From Ipomoea triloba (taxonomy: Eukaryota; Streptophyta; Magnoliopsida; Solanales; Convolvulaceae), in NCBI RefSeq assembly GCF_003576645.1, contig NC_044918.1, forward strand, positions 17,678,809 to 17,742,808: a stretch of 64,000 bases of DNA, read 5' to 3'. Both the position numbers and the translations under genes were made by a program. Shown here in pieces: positions 9,674 to 47,061 of the stretch. The notes under the pieces are model-generated. The model searched no databases. It worked only from the letters and a program-made list of their open reading frames with translations, and had not been told where the DNA came from. Each line of letters begins with the position of its first letter. Within the stretch, counting starts at the first letter, position 1.

Positions 9674-9755
9674 GTCGCTTTGGCCGAGTGGTTAAGGCGT
9701 GTGCCTGCTAAGTACATGGGGTTTCCCCGCGAGAGTTCGAATCTCTCAGGCGACG
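9674..9755 (+). tRNA. tRNA-Ser (anticodon GCT)
   Basis: The 82-nt cloverleaf has an acceptor stem GTCGCTT pairing with AGGCGAC and discriminator G. The D-arm/A-box is TGGCCGAGTGG. A five-pair anticodon stem encloses the loop CTGCTAA with anticodon GCT (9707-9709). A long variable arm typical of class II serine tRNAs follows, then a T-arm with GTTCGAATC. It has no intron and no encoded CCA. T-runs at 9764-9767 and 9769-9773 can terminate Pol III. It decodes AGC/AGU. Confidence 0.95.
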
Positions 9756-12201: not shown

Positions 12202-14058
12202 ATGGATTCGGGAATTGATTCTGCAAAGGGGATACCAGATCCCATGGAAATCACAATGGTTGAATCTCGACCCAACGGTTCCCCTCATCCCCAAAAGCGT
12301 CGTCTCAACAAGTTCGCTTTTCTTTGCGCCGTTTTCGCTTCCACCAATTCTATTCTCTTGGGTTATGGTAAGTCCTTTCACATGATTTCATAATGATAAA
12401 TGCCTTCATGATCCAGTCATTCCACAGTCAAGTTAGTCAGATTGATGACCTGTAAGGTTGTAATTCAATTCTTAATGAGAACAATCCTATTGACCCTGAC
12501 TTCTTAATTTAATTGAGCTGATTAACTATATATAGATAACTTAGACCGGTCAAGATTCAATAGTTTCTTGACAAAATATTTGGATGATTTTTGTAAATTT
12601 GGCTGTTGACTTAGTAGTAATCCAAGTGATTTTGGTTTGAGCTAATCAGCTATAAACAATTTAAACTCCTAGTTTCTTGATCAATTGTTTGGATGGGTTA
12701 TTGTAGATCTTGGGGTTATGAGTGGTGCAGTTCTGTTCATTAAAGAAACGTTCAAGATTTCATCGGTGCAGCATGAATTGTTGGTGAGCTTATTGAACGT
12801 GTCGTCGTTGTTTGGGTCACTGGCGTCGGGGAAAACTTCCGATTTGATTGGCCGGCGATACACCATAGTATTGGCGGCGGCGACTTTCATAATAGGTGCA
12901 CTCCTGATGGGGCTTGCGCCGACCTACGGCTATCTACTGGCCGGAAGAGTGGTCGCCGGGATCGGAGTGGGGTATTCCCTCATGATTGCTCCGGTGTACA
13001 CTAGCGAGCTGTCGCCGGCGATGACCCGCGGATTTCTGTCTTCTTTGCCGGAAGTGTTCATCAACGTTGGGATATTAATCGGTTTCATTTCCAACATTTT
13101 GTTGTCCGGGCTGCCGGCGAACATTAGCTGGCGCCTCATGCTCGGCCTCTCCGGCGTCCCGGCGATCGGCATTGCCGCCGGCGTGATCAAGATGCCGGAG
13201 TCGCCCCGCTGGCTCGTCATGAAAGGGAGGCTCAGCGAAGCCAAGATGATTTTACGGAGGACATCGGAAAGTGAAGAAGAAGCCGATTTACGGTTAGAGG
13301 AAATAACAAAAGCCGCCGCATTTTCCGGCGAGTGGCGCGGGCAAGGCGCGTGGAAAGAGCTGCTCTGCCCGACGGCGCCGATCCGGCGAATGTTAGTTAC
13401 GGCGATCGGAATAAATTTTTTCATGCAAGCCTCCGGGAACGACGCGGTGGTTTACTACACGCCGTTGGTGTTCAAATCCGCCGGAATAGCTCACCGGAAA
13501 GCCCAAATCGGAGTGACAATCATCATGGGGATGGCTAAAACCACTTTTGTTTTGGTCTCAGCACTTTTCCTGGACAATTTCGGGCGACGGCCCATGTTAC
13601 TATTGGGCACAGTGGGCCAGGCCCTATCCCTGGCTGGGCTCGGGCTGGGCTCAACATATCTCCTCCACGCCCATCACAAGCCCATTTGGGCCATCGGGTT
13701 GTGTGTCCTCGCGGTCTGCGCCGACGTCTCGTTCTTCTCAATTGGGCTCGGGCCGATCACGTGGGTCTACTCAGCTGAAATTTTCCCGCTCAGACTCAGG
13801 GCCCAAGGCTCGGCCCTAGCAGTTTCGGTGAATAGGTTGGTGAGTGGGGTTGTCTCGGCCACGTTTCTTAGTATTTCCAAAAAAATAACGTTTGGAGGAA
13901 TGTTTTTTGTGCTTTCTGGGGTTATGGTGGTGGCTACACTGTTCTTTTACTTGCTATTGCCAGAGACCAAAGGAATGAGCCTAGAGGAAATAGGGTCACT
14001 GTTTGAGGACAAACAATCCGATGGTGAAAAGGATAAAGAGATTGAATTGGAGAGATAG
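12202..14058 (+). CDS. Polyol/monosaccharide transporter (MFS sugar-porter, PLT6-like)
   Basis: Two exons, 12202-12367 and 12707-14058, join across a GT-AG intron to give 505 residues. The intron falls inside the Asp codon of GYDLGVMSGA (54-63), the motif of transmembrane helix 1. Other sugar-porter signatures are GRR (104-106), PESPRWL (219-225), GRR again (348-350), ITWVYSAEIFP (406-416) and PETKG (474-478), with twelve hydrophobic segments around a central loop (about 216-280). This matches the plant polyol transporter subfamily, proton symporters of linear polyols and some monosaccharides, usually in the plasma membrane. It looks closest to Arabidopsis PLT6. The loop-7 substrate motif is MQASGND (295-301), where the first position is normally Gln. 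The second exon is notably GC-rich. The ATG at 12202 is the first in frame. Substrate cannot be read from the sequence. Confidence 0.93.
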
Positions 14059-15975: not shown

Positions 15976-16440
15976 ATACCGTGGATCATGGTCCAAAACG
16001 GTGCCGCTTCTTTTAATGAAAAGAAATCGCACTCGTTCGCGCTATTCCGCGTAAAGTAGCTCTGTATGTATAACATATTTAGTTTCATTTTATATACGCT
16101 GTAATTTCATTTCAACACAACTACAATTTCATCATTTCGATATAACTATAATTTCATTGGACAATATACATTCAAATATGTGAAACTATTATTCAGTTTC
16201 ATTTTACATATACTATAGTTTCATTACAACACAACTACAGTATCATTTCGATATAACTACAGGTTCATTGGACAATATATACTCAAATATGTGAAACTGT
16301 TATTCCATTTCATTTAATATACATTGCAGTTTGATTTCAACGCAACTACAGTTTCATTTCGATATAACTACAGTTTCATTCGGGAATAACTACAGTTTCA
16401 TTCGACATTATACACTCAAATATGTGAAATTGTAATTCAG

Positions 16441-17025
16441 TTTCATTTTATATACACTATAGTTTCATTACAACACAACTACAATATCATTTAGATATAA
16501 CTACAGTTTTACTGGACAATATACACTCAAATTTAGATATAACTACAGTTTTACTGGACAATATACACTCAAATATGTGAAAAACTACAGTTTTACTGGA
16601 CAATATACACTCAAATATGTGAAATTGTATTTCAGTTTCATTTTATATACACTATAGTTTCATTACAACACAACTACAATATCATTTAGATATAACTACA
16701 GTTTTACTGGACAATATACACTCAAATTTAGATATAACTACAGTTTTACTGGACAATATACACTCAAATATGTGAAAAACTACAGTTTTACTGGACAATA
16801 TACACTCAAATATGTGAAATTGTATTTCAGTTTCATTTTATATACACTATAGTTTCATTACAACACAACTACAATATCATTTAGATATAACTACAGTTTT
16901 ACTGGACAATATACACTCAAATTTAGATATAACTACAGTTTTACTGGACAATATACACTCAAATATGTGAAAAACTACAGTTTTACTGGACAATATACAC
17001 TCAAATATGTGAAACTGTTATTCAG
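16441..17025. repeat. Three tandem 195-bp higher-order repeat units
   Basis: The segment starting TTTCATTTTATATACAC begins at 16441, 16636 and 16831, and the next copy of its start is at 17026, so the spacing is exactly 195 bp each time. The units look almost identical. Each contains three shorter repeats of CAGTTTTACTGGACAATAT. The flanks (16080-16440) hold older, divergent monomers. Confidence 0.9.
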
Positions 17026-17087
17026 TTTCATTTGAGCACAACTACAATTTTATTTCAATTCATTACAGTTTCATTTAATAATATAAA

Positions 17088-17902
17088 TGGAAAAGTGTCA
17101 AATTAACCCTCTAAGTCGGGTGGATAGTGCAATTAGGGGGCCTAAGTGAAAAAAGCTCCATTCAAGTCCCCTAAATCGGTAAAATAGTTCAATTAAGTCC
17201 AAAATGACTTGTTTATCAGGTCAAATTCGTAATGTTTTGACATATGTCTTTTTTTAATCAAAATAAATATTTTTATTTATTAAAAATATTATTTATTATA
17301 AATTAAAAAAATATTATTTTTTTTGGCAAAATTAAAAAAATATTTAAAAACAAAAGAGTAAATAAAGGTGTAGAAATGGTGATATTGACCTGACCTGTTG
17401 ACCTCCATTTCCAAAGCTTGTTTTTGGCGTCAACCCCCCGCCAACAACCGTCGCCGGCGGAAGCCTTCCAACCGTTGATCGGAAACTTCCTCCCACGTTC
17501 AATCTCCTCTTCCAATTCCGACCTGGTATTCACTCTACAGAGCACTACCACGAGCCCATTCGGCTTCACGGTCCACCGTCGTTCCACCGGCGACGTCCTC
17601 TTCGACACCTCGCCGGTGGCCAACCGTCCTGACACTCTGTTCATCTTCAATTTTTTTTAAAATATTATTTATCTTTTATTTATAATAAATAATATTTTTA
17701 ATAAATAAAAATATTGATTTTGAAAATAAAATTAAAAAAGGACACGTGTCAACAACTCATGAATTTGACCTGATAAACAAGTCATTTTGGACTCAATTGA
17801 ACAATTTTACCGGTTTAGGGGACTTGAATGGAGCTTTTTTTCACTTAGGGGGCCTAATTGCACTATCCACCCGACTTAGGGGGCCAATTTGACACTTTTC
17901 TC
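17088..17902. mobile_element. Mutator-like element with long TIRs carrying a host-gene fragment (Pack-MULE-like)
   Basis: A 9-bp direct repeat TAATATAAA flanks the element at 17079-17087 and 17903-17911, the duplication size of Mutator-like transposons. The ends share GAAAAGTGTCAAATT as terminal inverted repeats. The inverted similarity continues for about 230 bp each side (17088-17320 and 17650-17902), including 'GGGTGGATAGTGCAATTAGG', 'AAGCTCCATTCAAGTCCCCT' and 'CCAAAATGACTTGTTTATCAGG'. The central ~320 bp is GC-rich and unlike the ends. There is no transposase. The 9-bp duplication is AT-rich and sits in AT-rich DNA, so chance contributes, but it agrees with the long TIRs. Confidence 0.75.
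17430..17645 (+). pseudogene. Captured fragment resembling a GH31 alpha-glucosidase/alpha-xylosidase
   Basis: The plus strand reads without stops through a stretch containing SNSDLVFTLQ, then PFGFTVHRRSTGDVLFDTSP, then a 'DTLFIF' tail. This is the order and wording of the N-terminal beta-sandwich domain of plant glycoside hydrolase family 31 enzymes, which usually continue into 'KDQY'. Here the similarity stops at the right TIR. Only about 70 residues are present and there is no catalytic domain, so no enzyme is made. It is a transduplicated piece. The family call rests on my memory of the motif. Confidence 0.6.
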
Positions 17903-18837
17903 TAATATAAAAACAATATATGAGACAATTTCATTTTAGATACACTCTAATTTCATTTTGTAATTAATACACCAAAAATATAGACTTCGTTAAAATGTAG
18001 CAACAGTCGTTTCTTTATAAAGATCAGAAACAACACCATTTATGAACCATGATCCACGATATAACGACGGGTCAATTAATAAAACAAGCCTAGCTAAATA
18101 CAAAACATCAAATCAAAAGACAAATGCGTGTGGAGAAAGAATCTTTAAATAACAACAACACTAGACATATTTTCTACCAAAAAATATCATATAATTTGAT
18201 ATATATGTTTTGGTTGACCGATTATTCAATCCCATACTCTCTAATTTGACAATTCACTAATCAACCCACTCACTGACTCACATAAGATTAGAAGCACTAT
18301 CATGTGGTGGGCTTCTAGTAGAAAACGAGTTATAATCGAGCCCTGATAGCTGCAGTGTATGAGATCACAACAATATAGTGGGCTCCTTGTGTATACGAGA
18401 TATTGGTCCTTCCACTTAATGAGTTGACATGATTTATCCTTTCACTATCATGTTGGGTTAGGGGTATGAAGGTCCCCGAGGCAAACAAATTTCACCATTT
18501 GTGAGCAAGAGGCGCCTCATACATTTTCTGAATTGAAATAATTTGTCGAGATAGTACTTAGAAGCATTAAGCATCACAGTTGAACATATATTTGAAATGT
18601 AAATTGGAGCAGGCCATTAAAATAGGTGATTTGAACTTGGGAAAGTTAAACCCAGAATTTGTTTCTACCAAAAAGTGTCTTTTAGCTTTTGTAGGACTAG
18701 TTTTGAGGAGGGTAGAAAACATGCAATAACTGCAGTCAGTGTTTGAAGTGTCTGTTTATATTTGGAAGCTTCTGAGAATTCAAGATGCCCGACACTACTG
18801 TGGATTATTATTGCTACAGCCTTTGCAACTGGGGATG

Positions 18838-23890: not shown

Positions 23891-25055
23891 GATAAGTAAT
23901 CTCTTTAATTACGATAACAAATCACCTAGGTTATGACTGCCAAAAATAAGAAAAATGGGTCTCAAGATTTTGAGTTATACCTGTCACCATTGGACTGCTG
24001 CCCTCATCCCATAAGGGACGACTAGCCCTATAGAATTTTTTTTTATGTATATTATTTCTTCATCAACCTAAGTTTTCTTTTACCACTTATTTTTTTTTAA
24101 CAATTTTTTTTTTTTGTTTTGTATTTAATAGAGATTTTTTTGTTTGTCCTTAGGTTCCTCAAGGGCAGCAAATGCACTCCTTGGTGAGTTTTGTGCTATA
24201 TATAAATTTCATCAATTAACAATTAACTTAATTTTTTTAAAAAGTGAATAGTAAATTATTAGAGTGAAACATTCATTTTGAGATGAATGGATTCGATTGT
24301 TTTTTTATTGTTCCGTTTAATAGGCTAGTTTTTATTCTAACTATTTATAGTTTAGTTTTCTCTATCAATTAATTTAAGTAATATATAAATAATATTATAC
24401 ATAAAGTTAATTTAAACACCAAAAAAAAAAAAACAATTTTTCAAAAAGAATAAATAAATGAATAAAGATATTTCACATAACTAATGATTAAGTAATATTT
24501 TTATAAATATACAAAGTAGGGAAAATACTATGATACTAAATAGTAAGAATGTCAACTATTATAAATAAAGATATAAGTAATATTTTTATAAATATAATAA
24601 TAATAATTTTGTTTCTGTTTATGAATATATTTTTGATCTCTCTTATTAAAAAAAAAAAAAAAACTATCAAATTGACTCTATAATTCTAGCAAATAGTACA
24701 ATTGAATTCATAATAAAACAAAACATAATCTTATCTACTCATCATGTTATCGATGCTTTGGCACTGACTAGGGTTTCATCTGTGTTTATTTATTTATTTA
24801 TTGAGATGTGATGATTAGACATTTTTGAAGTAAAAAAAAAAAACTAAAAACATATTATGAAGATAGCTATTATATGGAGGCAGTCGCCCAACAACATCAC
24901 GACCATGGTTGTATTAAAAAAAAAATCAAAAGTAATAAAATAAATCTATATATAAGTATCAGAATATCACAAATCAGTACGTCTAGAGTCTAGTCAACAT
25001 CTCACCCGTGAAAACTTGTCAAATACGGAGTATGTAATATTAGAACCTAGCTAGC

Positions 25056-25378: not shown

Positions 25379-25386
25379 TATATAAG
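25379..25386 (+). promoter_or_regulatory. TATA box of the OVATE-family gene
   Basis: TATATAAG lies 97 bases upstream of the ATG at 25476, followed by a short leader ending in a CT-rich TTCTTCTTCTTCTTC tract. Spacing and context suit a plant core promoter. Confidence 0.6.
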
Positions 25387-25475
25387 AATATACCGCTTCC
25401 CAAACGACACGTAACTATACTATCTACGTCCAAACCACACTTTCTTCTTCTTCTTCAAAGCTCATTTCCCTCAAA

Positions 25476-26213
25476 ATGTTGTCTTCAATGGAGAACCACA
25501 TCAAACACAAGATCACTCGCATCTTTCGATCCTCTTTCGGCTCCTGCAAGACCAAGAACATCACCGACGTCATTGACGACGACAAGCCTGTTTTTCATCC
25601 TCAAAATCCCCAATTTTTCTCCGACATTTTCCCTCCCAAACCTCGTCCTTTCCCTTCCATTTGCCGCCCCGGACCAGAGGTTGATCATCGCATTTTGTTC
25701 CCACGACCCAAAATCTCCGACCAAAGCTCCCCTCTTTTCCCACCGCCGGCTCCCAGTAAGCACAAGAAGAAGAAGAGAATCGGATACAAAGGTTTGTTCA
25801 GCAGCGACGACGAGGAAACGGAGGACGAAGATGACGATGATAGGGCCACTCTTTTCTCGTCGGTGTCGTTCTCATTCTCGTCGGACTCCTCGGAGTCGTT
25901 CCGGCGGCGGCGGGCGGAGCGGATCAGGCGGCGGCGGCGGAGGGCGGCGCGTAAGAGAAGAGGGGCGGAGGAGAAGGAGAAGGAGGCGGCGATGAAGGAC
26001 AGCATGGCGGTGGTGAAGCGGTCGAGAGACCCGTGCGCGGATTTCAGGGCATCAATGTTGGAAATGATAATGGAGAAACAGATATTCGGAGCCAAGGATT
26101 TGGAGAAGCTTTTGGACTGTTTTCTCTCTTTAAACTCACATCATCATCATGGGGTCATCATTCAGGTCTTCACTGAGATTTGTGAAGCTTTGTTCTCTAA
26201 TTACTGCCCCTGA
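25476..26213 (+). CDS. OVATE family protein (transcriptional repressor, OFP7/8-like)
   Basis: An intronless gene of 245 residues. A basic N-terminus (HIKHKITRIFRSSFGSC, about 8-24) is followed by a Pro-rich region (about 41-93), a Lys cluster (96-101), an acidic run (110-122), a Ser-rich stretch (128-141) and an Arg-rich segment (144-162) that could be a nuclear localisation signal. The C-terminal OVATE domain (about 177-240) carries DPCADFRASMLEMI, then DLEKLLDCFLSLNS and the closing IIQVFTEICEALF. OVATE proteins repress transcription and bind TALE homeodomain and microtubule-organising (TRM) partners to control organ shape. Translation may start at Met1 or Met5. The purine-rich coding strand at 25,900-26,000 is low-complexity but in frame. 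The subgroup assignment is by general layout. Confidence 0.93.
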   Translation: MLSSMENHIKHKITRIFRSSFGSCKTKNITDVIDDDKPVFHPQNPQFFSDIFPPKPRPFPSICRPGPEVDHRILFPRPKISDQSSPLFPPPAPSKHKKKKRIGYKGLFSSDDEETEDEDDDDRATLFSSVSFSFSSDSSESFRRRRAERIRRRRRRAARKRRGAEEKEKEAAMKDSMAVVKRSRDPCADFRASMLEMIMEKQIFGAKDLEKLLDCFLSLNSHHHHGVIIQVFTEICEALFSNYCP

Positions 26214-30718: not shown

Positions 30719-31259
30719 ATGTCGACTGTTACCAAGTTCGATATCGAGAAGTTCGACGGGAAAATTAGCTTTTCTATCTGGAAGGTTCAGATGGAAGTCG
30801 TTCTAACCCAGAACGGTTTGAAAAAAGCGCTAGCTGGGAAGAAGAAGAAACCAGCTACAATGACAGATGAAGATTGGGAAGATTTGGATGAGAAGGCACG
30901 TTCAACCATTCAGTTGTGCCTGTCTAAATCGGTTCTACGTGAGGTGATAGGTGAGACGACTACGTCAGGTTTATGGTCCGAGCTGGATTCGCGCTACATG
31001 GACAAATCTCTGGCGAACAAGCTGCGCCTGAAGGAGCGGCTGTACACAATCCGTATGACAATAGGTACTTCAATTCTATTGACGATGAGGATCGTGCTAT
31101 TTTATTGCTTGTGTCTCTCCCTACATCATACAAGCATTTTAAAGAAATTATGCTGTATGGTAATTCTCTTGGAGTCATAACTTTCGAAAGTGTTAAGTCG
31201 AACCTACTGTCCAAAGAAAAATTTGACTTAGAAACTAAGTCTGGGACAAAGGTGAAGGC
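30719..31259 (+). pseudogene. Copia gag, frameshifted
   Basis: The ATG at 30719 opens a typical Copia gag N-terminus ('FDGKISFSIWKVQMEVVL', 'LANKLRLKERLYTIRM'). Near 31062 a small deletion moves the reading to another frame, where 'DDEDRAILLLVSLPTSYKHF' continues the protein. A second shift near 31258 moves it again. Each junction falls inside conserved gag sequence, so these are damage rather than programmed shifts. Confidence 0.85.
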
Positions 31260-33123
31260 TTGACTGTTAGGGGTCGTTCAGTTGAAACGGATAGTAGCAA
31301 TAAAAAATCTAGATCCAAGTCCAAAGGACGTAAGTCCAACAAATCCTGTAAGTACTGCAAGAAGCATGGTCATGATGTGACTGAATGCTTCAAGTTGAAG
31401 AACAAGCAAGAGAGAGAAAAGAAGTCCGCTGAAGCTAGTGTTGTTGAGAGTGATTCAGAAGGCGATGTTATGTTATCTATTAGCTCCGGTGACAAACGGA
31501 GCGAAACTGAGTGGATTCTGGACTCTGGTTGTACATTCCACATGTGTCCACACAAAGACTGGTTCATCTCACTAGAACCAGTTGATGGTGGAGTTGCCTT
31601 GATGGGTAATGATACCCAATGCAAGGTTAGTGGAATTGGAAGTGTGCAGATCAAAACTCATGATAACGTTATCAGGACTCTTACCAATGTTCGATATATT
31701 CCTGATTTGAAACGCAATCTGATTTCATTGGGCACCTTGGAATCTCTGGGGTGCAAGTACACAACTGAAGGTGGAGTTCTGAAAGTTATTAAAGGCTCTC
31801 TTGTTCTTATGAAAGCTTCTCGTTCTAGAAGCTTGTACGTGTTGCATGGCAGTACTGTGACAGGTTCAGTTGCGGTATCCTCATCGGTGTCTGATGCTGA
31901 TCTCACTCAACTATGGCATATGCGTCTGGGGCATATGAGTGAGAAAGGCATGCATATCCTGAGTAAGAAAGGCCTCCTCTGTTCAGGTACGGGTAAATTA
32001 CAATTTTGTGAGCATTGTGTTTTTGGGAAACAAAAGAGGGTTAGTTTCTCTACTGCTACACACCGTACCAAAGATGTATTGGAATATATACATTCTGATT
32101 TATGGGAACCGACTAAAGTCCAGTCTATGGGAGGCTGTAGATATTTTATGTCTATTATTGATGACTTTTCTCGTAAAGTCTGGGTCTATTTCCTGAAACA
32201 TAAAAATCAGGCATTTTCTATTTTCAAAAAGTGGAAAATTCTCGTTGAGACTCAGACAGGGAAAAAGGTCAAGAAGCTCAGGACAGACAATGGCTTGGAG
32301 TTCTGTGAGAGAGATTTCACTGAGTTCTGTGCAGCACAAGGAATTGCCAGGCACAAGACCTTGCCTGGAAAACCCCAGCAGAATGGTGTTGCCGAATGTA
32401 TGAACAGGACTCTGTTAGAGAGAGCTCGTTGTATGCTCTCTAATGTTGGGTTATGGAAACGGCGTGATTTTTGGGCCGAGGCCGTTTCTACTGCATCCTA
32501 TTTGGTAAATAGGTCTCCACATTCATCCCTCGATTTCAAAATTCCAGAAGAAGTTTGGTCAGGTAATCCTGTTGACTACTCTATGTTAAGAGTTTTTGGA
32601 TGTCCTACATATGCTCATTCCAGTACGGGTAAATTAAACCCGAGAGCTATCAAATGCATTTTCCTTGGTTATGCCTCTGAGTCAAAAGGATATCGTCTAT
32701 GGTCTCCTGATTCCCACAAGATCATTCTAAGTCACTTTTGATGAAAATGCACTACTTTCTTCTGGAAAAGATCGTGTTATTCCCAGTACAGGTGATACGC
32801 AGAGTACTGGAGAGAAGGTGGAGTTTGAGTTCAGGCCTATGAATAATATTACTATCACTGATGGTAATACTAAAGATGATGCATCTACTAGCACCGCGCC
32901 TCTCGTTCAGCCACAGCGAGAGCACTCTATTGCCCAAGACCGGCCTAGGAGGACAATTAAAAAACCTGCTAGATATGCTAGTGATGATGAAACCCACTTG
33001 GTTGCTTATGCTCTTTCAGTTGCACAGGAGTTTGATGGTGATCCATCTTGTTATTCTGAGGCTCTTTCCTGTGTCAACTCGTCCAAGTGGTTGGTTGCTT
33101 ACCAAGCCTCTTCCAATTGCTAA
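31260..33123 (+). pseudogene. Copia zinc knuckle, protease and integrase; RT/RNase H deleted
   Basis: One open stretch (31260-32741) carries the CCHC knuckle '[14 protein letters not shown]', the protease active site [11 protein letters not shown], the pre-integrase '[10 protein letters not shown]' and the integrase core with [13 protein letters not shown] and the Glu of NGVAECMNR. Near 32735 a frameshift moves the reading into a frame holding the linker (about 32743-33123) and ending at the point where reverse transcriptase should begin ('SSKWLVAYQ' then a stop). No YVDD or RNase H motif occurs before the polypurine tract. Confidence 0.88.
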
Positions 33124-43028: not shown

Positions 43029-45677
43029 TCAAGCTGGATTGTATAGGCTCAACAATCCAAGCTTGGATATGTATTTCTGAAAGGAGCCAGGACAGTGAGC
43101 TTTTGTCAAAATGTCTGCTAACTGATTTTCTGAAGCAACATGTAGCAGTTTGATGATGCCTTTGTTCAACTTTTCTCTAACCAAGTGGCAGTCTAGCTCG
43201 ATATGTTTGGTGCGCTCGTGAAATACTGGATTCTCAGCGATGGCAATAGCGGATTTGCTATCACAATAGACAGTTGCAGTACTTTTGTGATTCACCCCAA
43301 GCTCTGTGAGTAGATAGAGAAGCCACTGGACTTCACAAGTAGTAGCTGCCAATGCCCTGTACTCAGCTTCTGATGAGGACTTGGAGATGGTAACTTGCTT
43401 CTTAGACTTCCAAGATACCAAGGCATTCCCTAGAAATATGCAGAAACCAGTTACAGATCTTCTAGTGTCCACACAGGCTCCCCAATCTGAATCAGAAAAG
43501 GCTTTGAGCTGTAAGTCAGAGGAGGAAGGGAAGAACAGCCCTTGGCCAGGGGCAGCTTTTATATATCTTAGGACTCTTTGAGCAGCTTGTAGGTGCAGAT
43601 GAGTAGGTTTGTCCAGGAATTGAGACAATTGTTGTGTGGCAAAACTAATATCAGGTCTAGTAATTGTCAAGTATAGAAACTTCCCAATTATCCTCCTGTA
43701 TCCAGTGTTGTCTTCAAGTAGTTCTCCTTCATTTTTGTTCAGCTTGTGGGATGGAACTGTTGGGCTATGGACAGGCTTGGAATCTGTAAAACCTGTTTCA
43801 GAAAGCAATTCAAGGGCATATTTCCTCTGACATACTGCAATGCCCTTCTTCTGTCTTGCCACTTCAAGTCCTAAGAAAAATTTCAAAGGGCCTAAATCTT
43901 TTATTTTGAAGTTGGCATTAAGCTGACTTTTAACTTCTTGTATAATTCCCAAATCAGCACTGGCAACTACTATGTCATCCACATAAACAAGTAAAGCTAT
44001 AAATGAATGACCTTCTCCTTTAGTGAAAAGAGAATTATCAGGTATGGACTGCCTAAACCCCATGTTCTGTAGTGCCAGGGTTAGCTTGGTGTTCCACTGC
44101 CTGCTAGCCTGTTTCAAGCCATACAAAGACTTGGTTAATTTGCATACCTGACCAGCCCTTTTGTCTGCAAACCCAAGAGGCAACTGCATATACACTTCCT
44201 CCTGCAAATCACCATGAAGAAATGCATTGTTGACATCCATCTGATGAAGGTGCCACTCTTTTGCTGCTGCTACTGCCAGGAGAGTTCTGATGGTTGTCAT
44301 CTTGGCCACAGGGCTGAATGTGTCAAGGTAATCAATGCCAAGAGTCTGATTGTAACCTTTTGCAACAAGTCTTGCCTTATACCTTTCAATTGTACCATCA
44401 GCTTTGTGCTTAACTTTGTAAACCCATTTGCAGCCAATAGGTTTCTTTGAGGGAGGTAGATTGACTATCTCCCAAGTGTTGTTGCTTTCTAAGGCTTTGA
44501 TTTCCTCTTCCATGGCTTTCCTCCAACACTCATGTTGAACTGCTTCCTTGTAGTTATTTGGCTCAGAATGGCATGATATATTCATTACAAAAGACTGAAA
44601 TGAGGGATCAAGTTTGCTGTAATCCATAACCTTGTTCATAGTGTGAGGAGAAGTCCTTACTTTTAGGTTGTGGCACACATAGTCCTGTAGATATGTGGGA
44701 GTGTGCTTCTGCCTAGTGGATCTCCTGGTGATCTGTTGGTCAGTGTTCACAGAAGGATTGACCTGATGATTTGTCACCCCAGGTGATAGTTCACTGGTTT
44801 CTTCACTCAAGGGACCGTGTTCACAACTGTTTTCATCATTAATTCTGACTTGGTTCTGAGGCTGCATGACATCAGGCACTTCTATGGGAATTTCATTCAT
44901 TGAAGGAAGTATGATTTGGGGAATCCTCTCTTCTTGAGTAGTGTCTTGTTGAAATGGGAAGATGTGCTCATAAAAGATAACATCCCTAGACAGCAGTAGT
45001 TTCTTGGACACAAGGTCATACACTTTGTATCCTTTTGTAGCAGTGGCACATCCAAGGAAAACACATTTCTTGGCCCTAGCATCCAGTTTGGATTTGGGAC
45101 TGACTATAGTGGCATTGGCTAGGCAACCAAACACTTTCAAGTTCTGGTATTGTGGAACCCTTTTAAGTAGCACTTGATATGGAATCTGATCATTGATGGC
45201 AGCTGAGGGCAACCTGTTAATTATGTAAGCTGCATGCAATATGCATTCACCCCAAAAGGCTTCAGGTAGATTGGCCTGAAATATGAGTGCCCTAGCAGTG
45301 GCTAAAAGATGGCCATGTTTTCTTTCAACCCTGCTGTTCTGTTGAGGAGTGTAAGTACATGAGGTCTGATGCACAATCCCTTTCTGACTAAAGAACTCTT
45401 CCATGTTGAATTCCCATCCATTATCAGACCTTATACATTTCACACTGGAAGCAAACTGATTTTCAACAAGCCTGCAAAATCCTGTGATCAAGTCCCTAAC
45501 CTCAGACTTCATCTTCATCATGTATACCCACACTGCTCTGCTATGATCATCTAATATGGTAAGAAAATAGTGATGACCATGAATGGTAGCTACCTTGTAG
45601 GGTCCCCATATATCCACATGTAACAAATCAAAGCAGTTAGTTGACAATGAACTACTAGACTGAAATGGAAGCCTCTT
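43029..45677 (-). pseudogene. Copia pol: integrase, reverse transcriptase and RNase H
   Basis: After a nonsense codon at 45678-45680 the frame is open for about 880 codons. Counting from 45647, the integrase triad is Asp12, Asp75 and Glu108. The GKGY-type C-terminal integrase region follows. Reverse transcriptase spans about 375-620 with 'QMDVNNAFLHGDL' and the YVDD box at 555-558. RNase H has DSDW (719-722), SSSEAEY (758-764) and YCDSKSA (794-800). All key catalytic residues are present and this part looks intact. It belongs to a retrotransposon, not to a host gene. The plus-strand open frames opposite it are shadows. Confidence 0.93.
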
Positions 45678-47061
45678 TTATTTAGCAAAGTGACAACAGT
45701 CACATATCAAACTTTTATTGATCTGAATCATAGGTTCCAATTTCTGTAAGCATACAAGTTTTGAGTATGAAGCATGGCCTAGTCTAGTATGCCACAAAGT
45801 GCATTTATTAACAGTTGAAACTGAATTGCATACAGATGAAGGAGTAGGAAAAACTAGGTGATATAAACCATCTTGCAGCTCAGCTCTTCCAATCATTTTG
45901 CCAAGGGTAACATCCTGTATAATGCACTGATTAGAGTGTATCTTCATAGCATACTTTGAATTCTTAATGAAGGCTCCAACTGACATCAAATTGTAATGAA
46001 AACCAGGAACATATAGCACATTATGCAAAACAAACTCATCAGAAATGTATACTGAACCAGTGAATGTAATGGCAGCCTGATGTCCATTGGGTAGGCTAAC
46101 ATGCAGATTGTGAGCCTTTTCTTGATTACTTAACAGCTTTAAATCACAAACAATATGGTGGGTAGCACCACTATCCACAATCCACTTAGCCTTGTTATAT
46201 TTAACAGAATTAAGTGAGATTGTACCTTCATTTTGGAAATCAGCTGACACTGTGTTGGCTAGAACTTGTGTAGGCTGATCAAGGGGTGAATTCAAGCCCT
46301 CATTACTTGATTTCTGCATCTGCATGAATTCCAAGAAGTTCTTGAAATCATTCTGAGTGAAGGACATGCCTTCATCTTTGACACTGGGCTGCTGTGTTGC
46401 AGGTGAGCATTGGAGTTGGTTAACTGATCCTTGGCTTCTTGATCTTGGTTTCCATCCAGGTGGATAACCATGCTTTTTATAGCATTTATCTTGGGTGTGG
46501 CCTGTGTAACCACAATGAGTGCAGACTGGTCTCTTGTTAGTAGGTTGTGTCCTTTTGTAACCTTGTTGAAATCCCCCATCACTCTTAGCCATGAACACAC
46601 TGCCTGTAACACTGTTTTCACCTGCTTGGTGTAACTGACTGCCAAAACCAACATTGGCCAACTGAAATTGCCTCTCCTGTTGAGCAATCATGGAGTAGGC
46701 TTCATTGACATCTGGTAAAGGCCTCATGAGCATAATCTGGTTCCTAGCTGCAGTATATTTCTCATGTAGCCCAATCAGGAAAATTGAGAGTTTGTCCTTC
46801 TCACTCTGTTCATTGACCTCATCCAATTTTTTGCCACAACCACACCTAGTGGTGCAAGCACAGCTCAAAGGAGGTCTAATAATAGCTAATTCATCCCATA
46901 ACAACTTCTGTCTGGTGAAGTATTCATTCAGGGAGTTATCAATCTATTTTGTTTGGTAAATCTCACATTTAATTTCTGCAATCCGAAACAGATCTTGTTT
47001 GCTAAACCTCCTTTTCAGATCATTCCAAATGCCATATGTTGTTTCTATCCACAGAACACTA

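Follow-up and report, generated by a model that had tools for sequence, protein, structure and literature searches.

The stretch at 17088-17902 of the 64-kb window (by which we mean the whole DNA analysed) is, with a probability of about 0.96, a Pack-MULE, that is an inserted Mutator-like element (MULE, a small cut-and-paste DNA transposon) flanked by a target-site duplication (TSD), bounded by the terminal inverted repeats (TIRs) of a dispersed family, and carrying inside two pieces copied from a GH31 gene on contig C8. The anatomy of the element, its family, its parent and the patchwork of its interior were seen directly in our analysis. Pack-MULEs are well known as a kind; what is new is a clean example with the parent gene identified, and we found no published Pack-MULE carrying an alpha-glucosidase fragment in the open-licence papers searched. 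The parent is located to the base and the breakpoints are readable, so that the element adds one more case of how MULEs capture DNA, without changing any general view.

The element is an 815-bp non-autonomous MULE: TIRs and captured pieces fill nearly all of its length, and the core peptide, a very short piece, matched 0 Pfam families. It starts with TGGAAAAGTGTCAAAT, a near-complement of which stands at the other end, and immediately outside both ends lies a perfect 9-bp direct repeat, TAATATAAA. Among the 63,167 pairs of positions that lie 824 bp apart in the window, identical 9-mers occur once, namely at the TAATATAAA pair itself, and 1,550 of 2,000,000 random pairs of AT-rich 9-mers were equal. 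The two TIRs, of about 240 bp, align with an E value of 2.9e-80 (BLAST within the window) and differ by 10 transitions and 7 transversions (K2P 0.078). The 9-bp flanking repeat announced in the earlier note is thus real, and so are its long TIRs (about 230 bp in its estimate), with the limits of the element exact.

Table 1. Features of the element and its immediate flanks, in window positions.
Feature	Position	Strand	Basis
Left target-site duplication, TAATATAAA	17079-17087	.	exact match to 17903-17911
Left TIR, outer end TGGAAAAGTGTCAAAT	17088-17320 (aligned part 17090-17320)	+	213/243 columns identical to right TIR; similar ends in other genomic copies
AT-rich junction, left TIR to captured DNA	17321-17354	+	outside parent matches
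Captured piece A (element 268-331), shortly before the inferred parental ATG	17355-17418	+	C8:5928122-5928185, 62/64 identical
Open frame through core, 82 codons, no ATG	17412-17657	+	ORF list; given frame open in 12% of 2,000 core shuffles
13-bp junction joining piece A to piece B	17419-17431	+	first 9 bases (17419-17427, TGTTTTTGG) identical to C8:5928401-5928409 in parent exon 1
Captured piece B (element 345-563), from within parent exon 2, encoding GH31 N-terminal domain	17432-17650	+	C8:5928679-5928897, 207/219 identical; PDB 3w37, E=5e-9
Right TIR	17659-17902 (aligned part 17659-17900)	-	inverted-repeat alignment to left TIR
Right target-site duplication, TAATATAAA	17903-17911	.	exact match to 17079-17087

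The whole element was searched against its own 462-Mb genome of 17 contigs, the best 40 of 432 candidates being scored. At least 140 matches were found on 15 of the 17 contigs, C8 holding a match to the core only, and the same TIRs recur at no fewer than some 35 other dispersed places, many of them paired (counted by eye). If the element and the pair of pieces on C8 are set aside, the matches listed are parts of the TIRs and at most their inner edges, reaching no further than element position 279 from the left and beginning at 553 on the right. Nineteen family copies were fetched by pairing matches on opposite strands, further pairs and places with a single TIR being left aside. Most of the 19 have outer ends like GGGAAAAGTGTCAAAT. 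With TSD lengths of 8-11 bp permitted and the ends allowed to shift by a few bases, 13 carry a perfect duplication (9-11 bp), three have one with a single mismatch and three have none recognisable; one of the perfect cases, copy L025, is an AT microsatellite and therefore weak. One might imagine a chance inverted repeat lying beside a GH31 pseudogene, without any capture by a transposon; nothing speaks for this except that the fragment is small. The dispersed places with the same TIRs, at least about 35 in number, and the TSDs of 16 out of 19 fetched copies (one mismatch allowed) speak against it, so that we give this reading practically no credence and, in our view, the TIR family and the TSDs have already refuted it.

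Sixteen of the 19 fetched copies have cores with a GC content of 0.44-0.60, and in this plant genome the cores of the TIR family are mostly GC-richer than their surroundings. The cores of many copies resemble one another, while the GH31 core is shared by none of the 19 (E<=1e-8). The earlier note had named, as fatal to its proposal, a core that belongs to every copy and has no host parent; the core is missing from the fetched copies, and a host parent exists. Against the Pack-MULE reading it can be said that three of the 19 fetched copies are without a TSD, and that further copies of the core could exist, the genome search having covered the best 40 of 432 candidates. A second and commoner GC-rich core, partly palindromic, is common in whole or in part to L010-L012 and L015-L021; one ORF from each of six family cores (L017 and L021 included) was compared with Pfam and none of the six matched. 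Two of these copies, L019 (1-1201) and L020 (1-1811), are neighbours on contig C9, at about 0.70-0.71 Mb. Their TIRs agree at 256/260 and 188/190 positions, no TSD was found, and an internal stretch of 186 bp is common to both at 100%; they perhaps represent a recent local rearrangement or a nested structure.

The interior of the element differs in composition from its ends: GC is 0.59 at 17411-17498 and 0.57 at 17499-17648, but 0.26-0.29 within the TIRs, the whole window having 0.34. The GC-rich core of the earlier note therefore stands, at 57-59% GC, with one refinement: the 64 bp of piece A, to the left of the GC-rich stretch and mostly outside it, were captured as well. The earlier note had also read the core as the N-terminal domain of a GH31 enzyme, a reading that a translated search without any GH31 match would have refuted. 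Such a match was found: the translated core aligns with residues 142-189 of a sugar-beet alpha-glucosidase (PDB 3w37) at E=5e-9, 26 of 48 aligned residues being identical, and the GH31 parent described below agrees with the captured DNA at 95-97% identity. Two further GH31 chains in PDB gave weak scores only (E=0.042 and 0.38). A large protein database, in which only proteins of similar length were compared, yielded one candidate and none at E<=0.01, and no viral contig was matched by tblastn. The first 34 residues of the core frame taken alone found nothing in PDB at E<=10; the stretch that encodes them (from 17432 on) does match the parent DNA. Rearranged TIR pieces were also sought in the spacer at 17332-17440 and rejected, as no score stood out and 16 to 261 of 300 shuffles were as good; most of this spacer is piece A.

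Beyond the element itself, the core matches one place in the genome among the matches listed, two collinear pieces on the same strand of contig C8 at about 5.928 Mb. Judging from its sequence, this locus is a multi-exon GH31 gene of alpha-glucosidase type and the parent of the core, which is the parental gene that the earlier note had hoped to see located. Its putative ATG lies at C8:5928219 and its first intron is predicted at 5928443-5928603, with GT-AG borders and the frame kept. Exon 2 matches residues 85-324 of PDB 3w37 (E=2.8e-97), and within three open frames of the locus Pfam recognises the GH31 N-terminal domain (PF13802), the TIM barrel (PF01055) and the C-terminal domain (PF21365). 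The name alpha-glucosidase, as opposed to alpha-xylosidase, follows that of the solved relative and of the parent's best PDB match, and is no proof of the substrate. Since the fetched locus contains a stretch of Ns and its exons are unassembled, we do not claim the whole gene to be intact. When the element was compared with the 9.9-kb locus, matches fell in pieces A and B only (E<=1e-3), and the gene thus stands elsewhere in the genome without the TIRs; within the 64-kb window itself neither a clear GH31 parent nor a clear further copy of the MULE was seen.

Piece A stops 33 bp before the parental ATG and piece B begins 75 bp inside exon 2 (taking the GT-AG sites as predicted), 493 bp of the parent being skipped between them. 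The skip takes in the last part of the leader, the whole of exon 1 and of intron 1, and the beginning of exon 2. On its right, piece B breaks off within the parental reading frame, after the second base of a lysine codon, and directly abuts the AT-rich inner edge of the right TIR. The TGTTTTTGG 9-mer in the junction between the two pieces could be a third captured patch, from exon 1 of the parent; this is only suggestive, because shuffles of the skipped interval contain that 9-mer in 65 of 20,000 cases, and a match of nine or more bases from the junction area in 105 of 3,000. A retro-capture of the normal spliced mRNA, with clean removal of the intron, is unsupported, for the skip ends inside exon 2 and is not a clean splice, which favours patchy copying. 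On the best reading, an element of this TIR family at some earlier time copied into its interior two pieces of the C8 gene, on the same strand and in the same order, one from the 5' leader or promoter and the other from exon 2. The breakpoints are most simply read as the product of an interrupted gap repair that copied genomic DNA and switched template. The element, with its TIRs of about 240 bp, inserted here with duplication of 9 bp of target, presumably moved by a transposase supplied in trans, and the captured fragment is now probably a non-coding passenger. A contiguous captured segment that later lost the 493 bp may have had the same outcome, since it would look the same. A truncated cDNA may conceivably have been the route of capture, as both pieces could lie in the mature mRNA, one in the 5' leader and the other in exon 2.

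Does the element code for a protein? It might in principle be a new chimeric gene, in which a transcript started from a TIR promoter is translated in the GH31 frame or in an antisense ATG frame of 113 codons. The 82-codon open frame, in which GC at third positions reaches 0.70 against 0.50 and 0.51 at the others, and the antisense ORF itself would suit such a gene. However, the GH31 frame has no ATG, the origin from the parent exon would lead one to expect the high GC at third positions, and 38% of core shuffles leave one or more of the six frames open, which together with the rate for the given frame (Table 1) means that the openness of the core frame says nothing. Over 72 codons, 7 non-synonymous stand against 4 synonymous differences from the parent (the differences being unpolarised), so that neither this comparison nor the frame shuffles gave a clear sign of protein-level constraint on the captured GH31 fragment. 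All ATG frames of 25 codons or more are antisense, with 113 and 39 codons, and we regard a coding function as highly improbable. Nor has the element the make-up of a GH31 enzyme gene: only an N-terminal fragment is present, with neither an in-frame ATG nor the catalytic TIM barrel and its active site. Gene finders could nonetheless wrongly annotate a GH31 fragment or the antisense ORF of 113 codons at this place, which we would see as a risk for annotation.

It is tempting to ask whether the fragment acts on its parent at the level of RNA, as PMC3310237 and PMC13317346 describe Pack-MULE captures that may give rise to siRNAs and regulate the genes they came from. For the RNA of the element, a highly stable hairpin is predicted (MFE -371 kcal/mol, z -28.6, none of 20 shuffles as stable). 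Together with the 95-97% identity of the core to the parent, which includes sequence right upstream of the start codon, this hairpin is compatible with an active regulator, in which the inverted repeats or TIR promoters would give a hairpin or antisense RNA, and small RNAs made from it would lower the expression of the C8 alpha-glucosidase gene or methylate it, leader included. In the predicted fold, however, the stem consists of the TIRs and the loop holds the GH31 part; hairpin-derived siRNAs would thus mostly target the TIRs. Moreover, any element with such TIRs is expected to fold like this whatever its core. A regulatory effect of the captured fragment on its parent is thus possible as far as its sequence goes, and we hold its being an active regulator unlikely. 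One may go further and combine both ideas: a single gap-repair event, switching template along one gene (leader, 9-bp patch of exon 1, exon 2), would have built a hairpin element that feeds small RNAs tuning the parental alpha-glucosidase, because leader-proximal sequence and a coding exon sit together inside a hairpin-forming element. This combined proposal seems to us very unlikely.

We return to the Pack-MULE reading and to how it compares with known systems. In the excerpt of PMC3310237, MULEs have TSDs of 9-11 bp and TIRs typically of 100-500 bp, and the present element has a 9-bp TSD in that class, long TIRs and a dispersed family with the same ends. Pack-MULEs in general are like this element, with its 9-bp TSD, TIRs of about 240 bp, GC-rich exon fragment and parent elsewhere; a fragment of a host gene that is no transposon gene lies inside it, and the parent stands elsewhere without TIRs. 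The GC richness of the capture is a tendency and not a definition, one that excerpts of PMC3310237 and PMC4858842 report as a preference of Pack-MULEs in rice and maize. Nothing essential sets our element apart from Pack-MULEs in general; its core is pieced together from two or perhaps three stretches of one gene and leaves out 493 bp. The Pack-MULE interpretation of the earlier note is accordingly borne out by TSD, TIRs, family and host parent alike. The tomato PM-ZIBP family is of similar size, its copy 1 having 944 bp, the TSD TTTTAAATT and 87% TIR identity (excerpt of PMC3310237). It differs in that, according to the same excerpt, a zinc-ion binding protein gene was captured and several copies exist, some with tandem TIRs, whereas our element has a single TIR per end and no second copy of its core among the matches listed. 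Compared with the sugar-beet alpha-glucosidase, whose N-terminal domain corresponds to what piece B encodes (E=5e-9), the element is without catalytic barrel, C-terminal domain and start codon, and is therefore not an enzyme gene.

An Rfam search over the whole window gave one tRNA gene, at 9674-9755 (+; 57.8 bits), and nothing within the element. A long open frame of the sugar-transporter family (12673-14058, +; Sugar_tr, E=5e-101) lies about 3 kb upstream of the element, and an OVATE-family repressor gene is found at 25386-26213 (+; PF04844, E=7e-25). Two pieces of Ty1/copia-type retroelements were recognised by their Pfam domains, one at 31239-32741 (+) with integrase and GAG-pre-integrase, the other at 43029-46943 (-) with integrase, GAG-pre-integrase and reverse transcriptase. 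The 44 bp at 24660-24703, which lie behind an A-tract, share 73% identity with the outer left end of the MULE. When this left end was the query, the score of 28 was reached by none of 300 shuffles of 24560-24800, the next best place in the window scoring 27; with the right end the score of 23 was reached by 11 of 300, and the 44 bp are perhaps, on this weak showing, the decayed TIR of a related element. Finally, an AT-rich nested tandem array with periods of 42, 111, 153 and 195 bp (98% matches in the 195-bp row) occupies 16076-17033 and ends 45 bp before the left TSD of the element.
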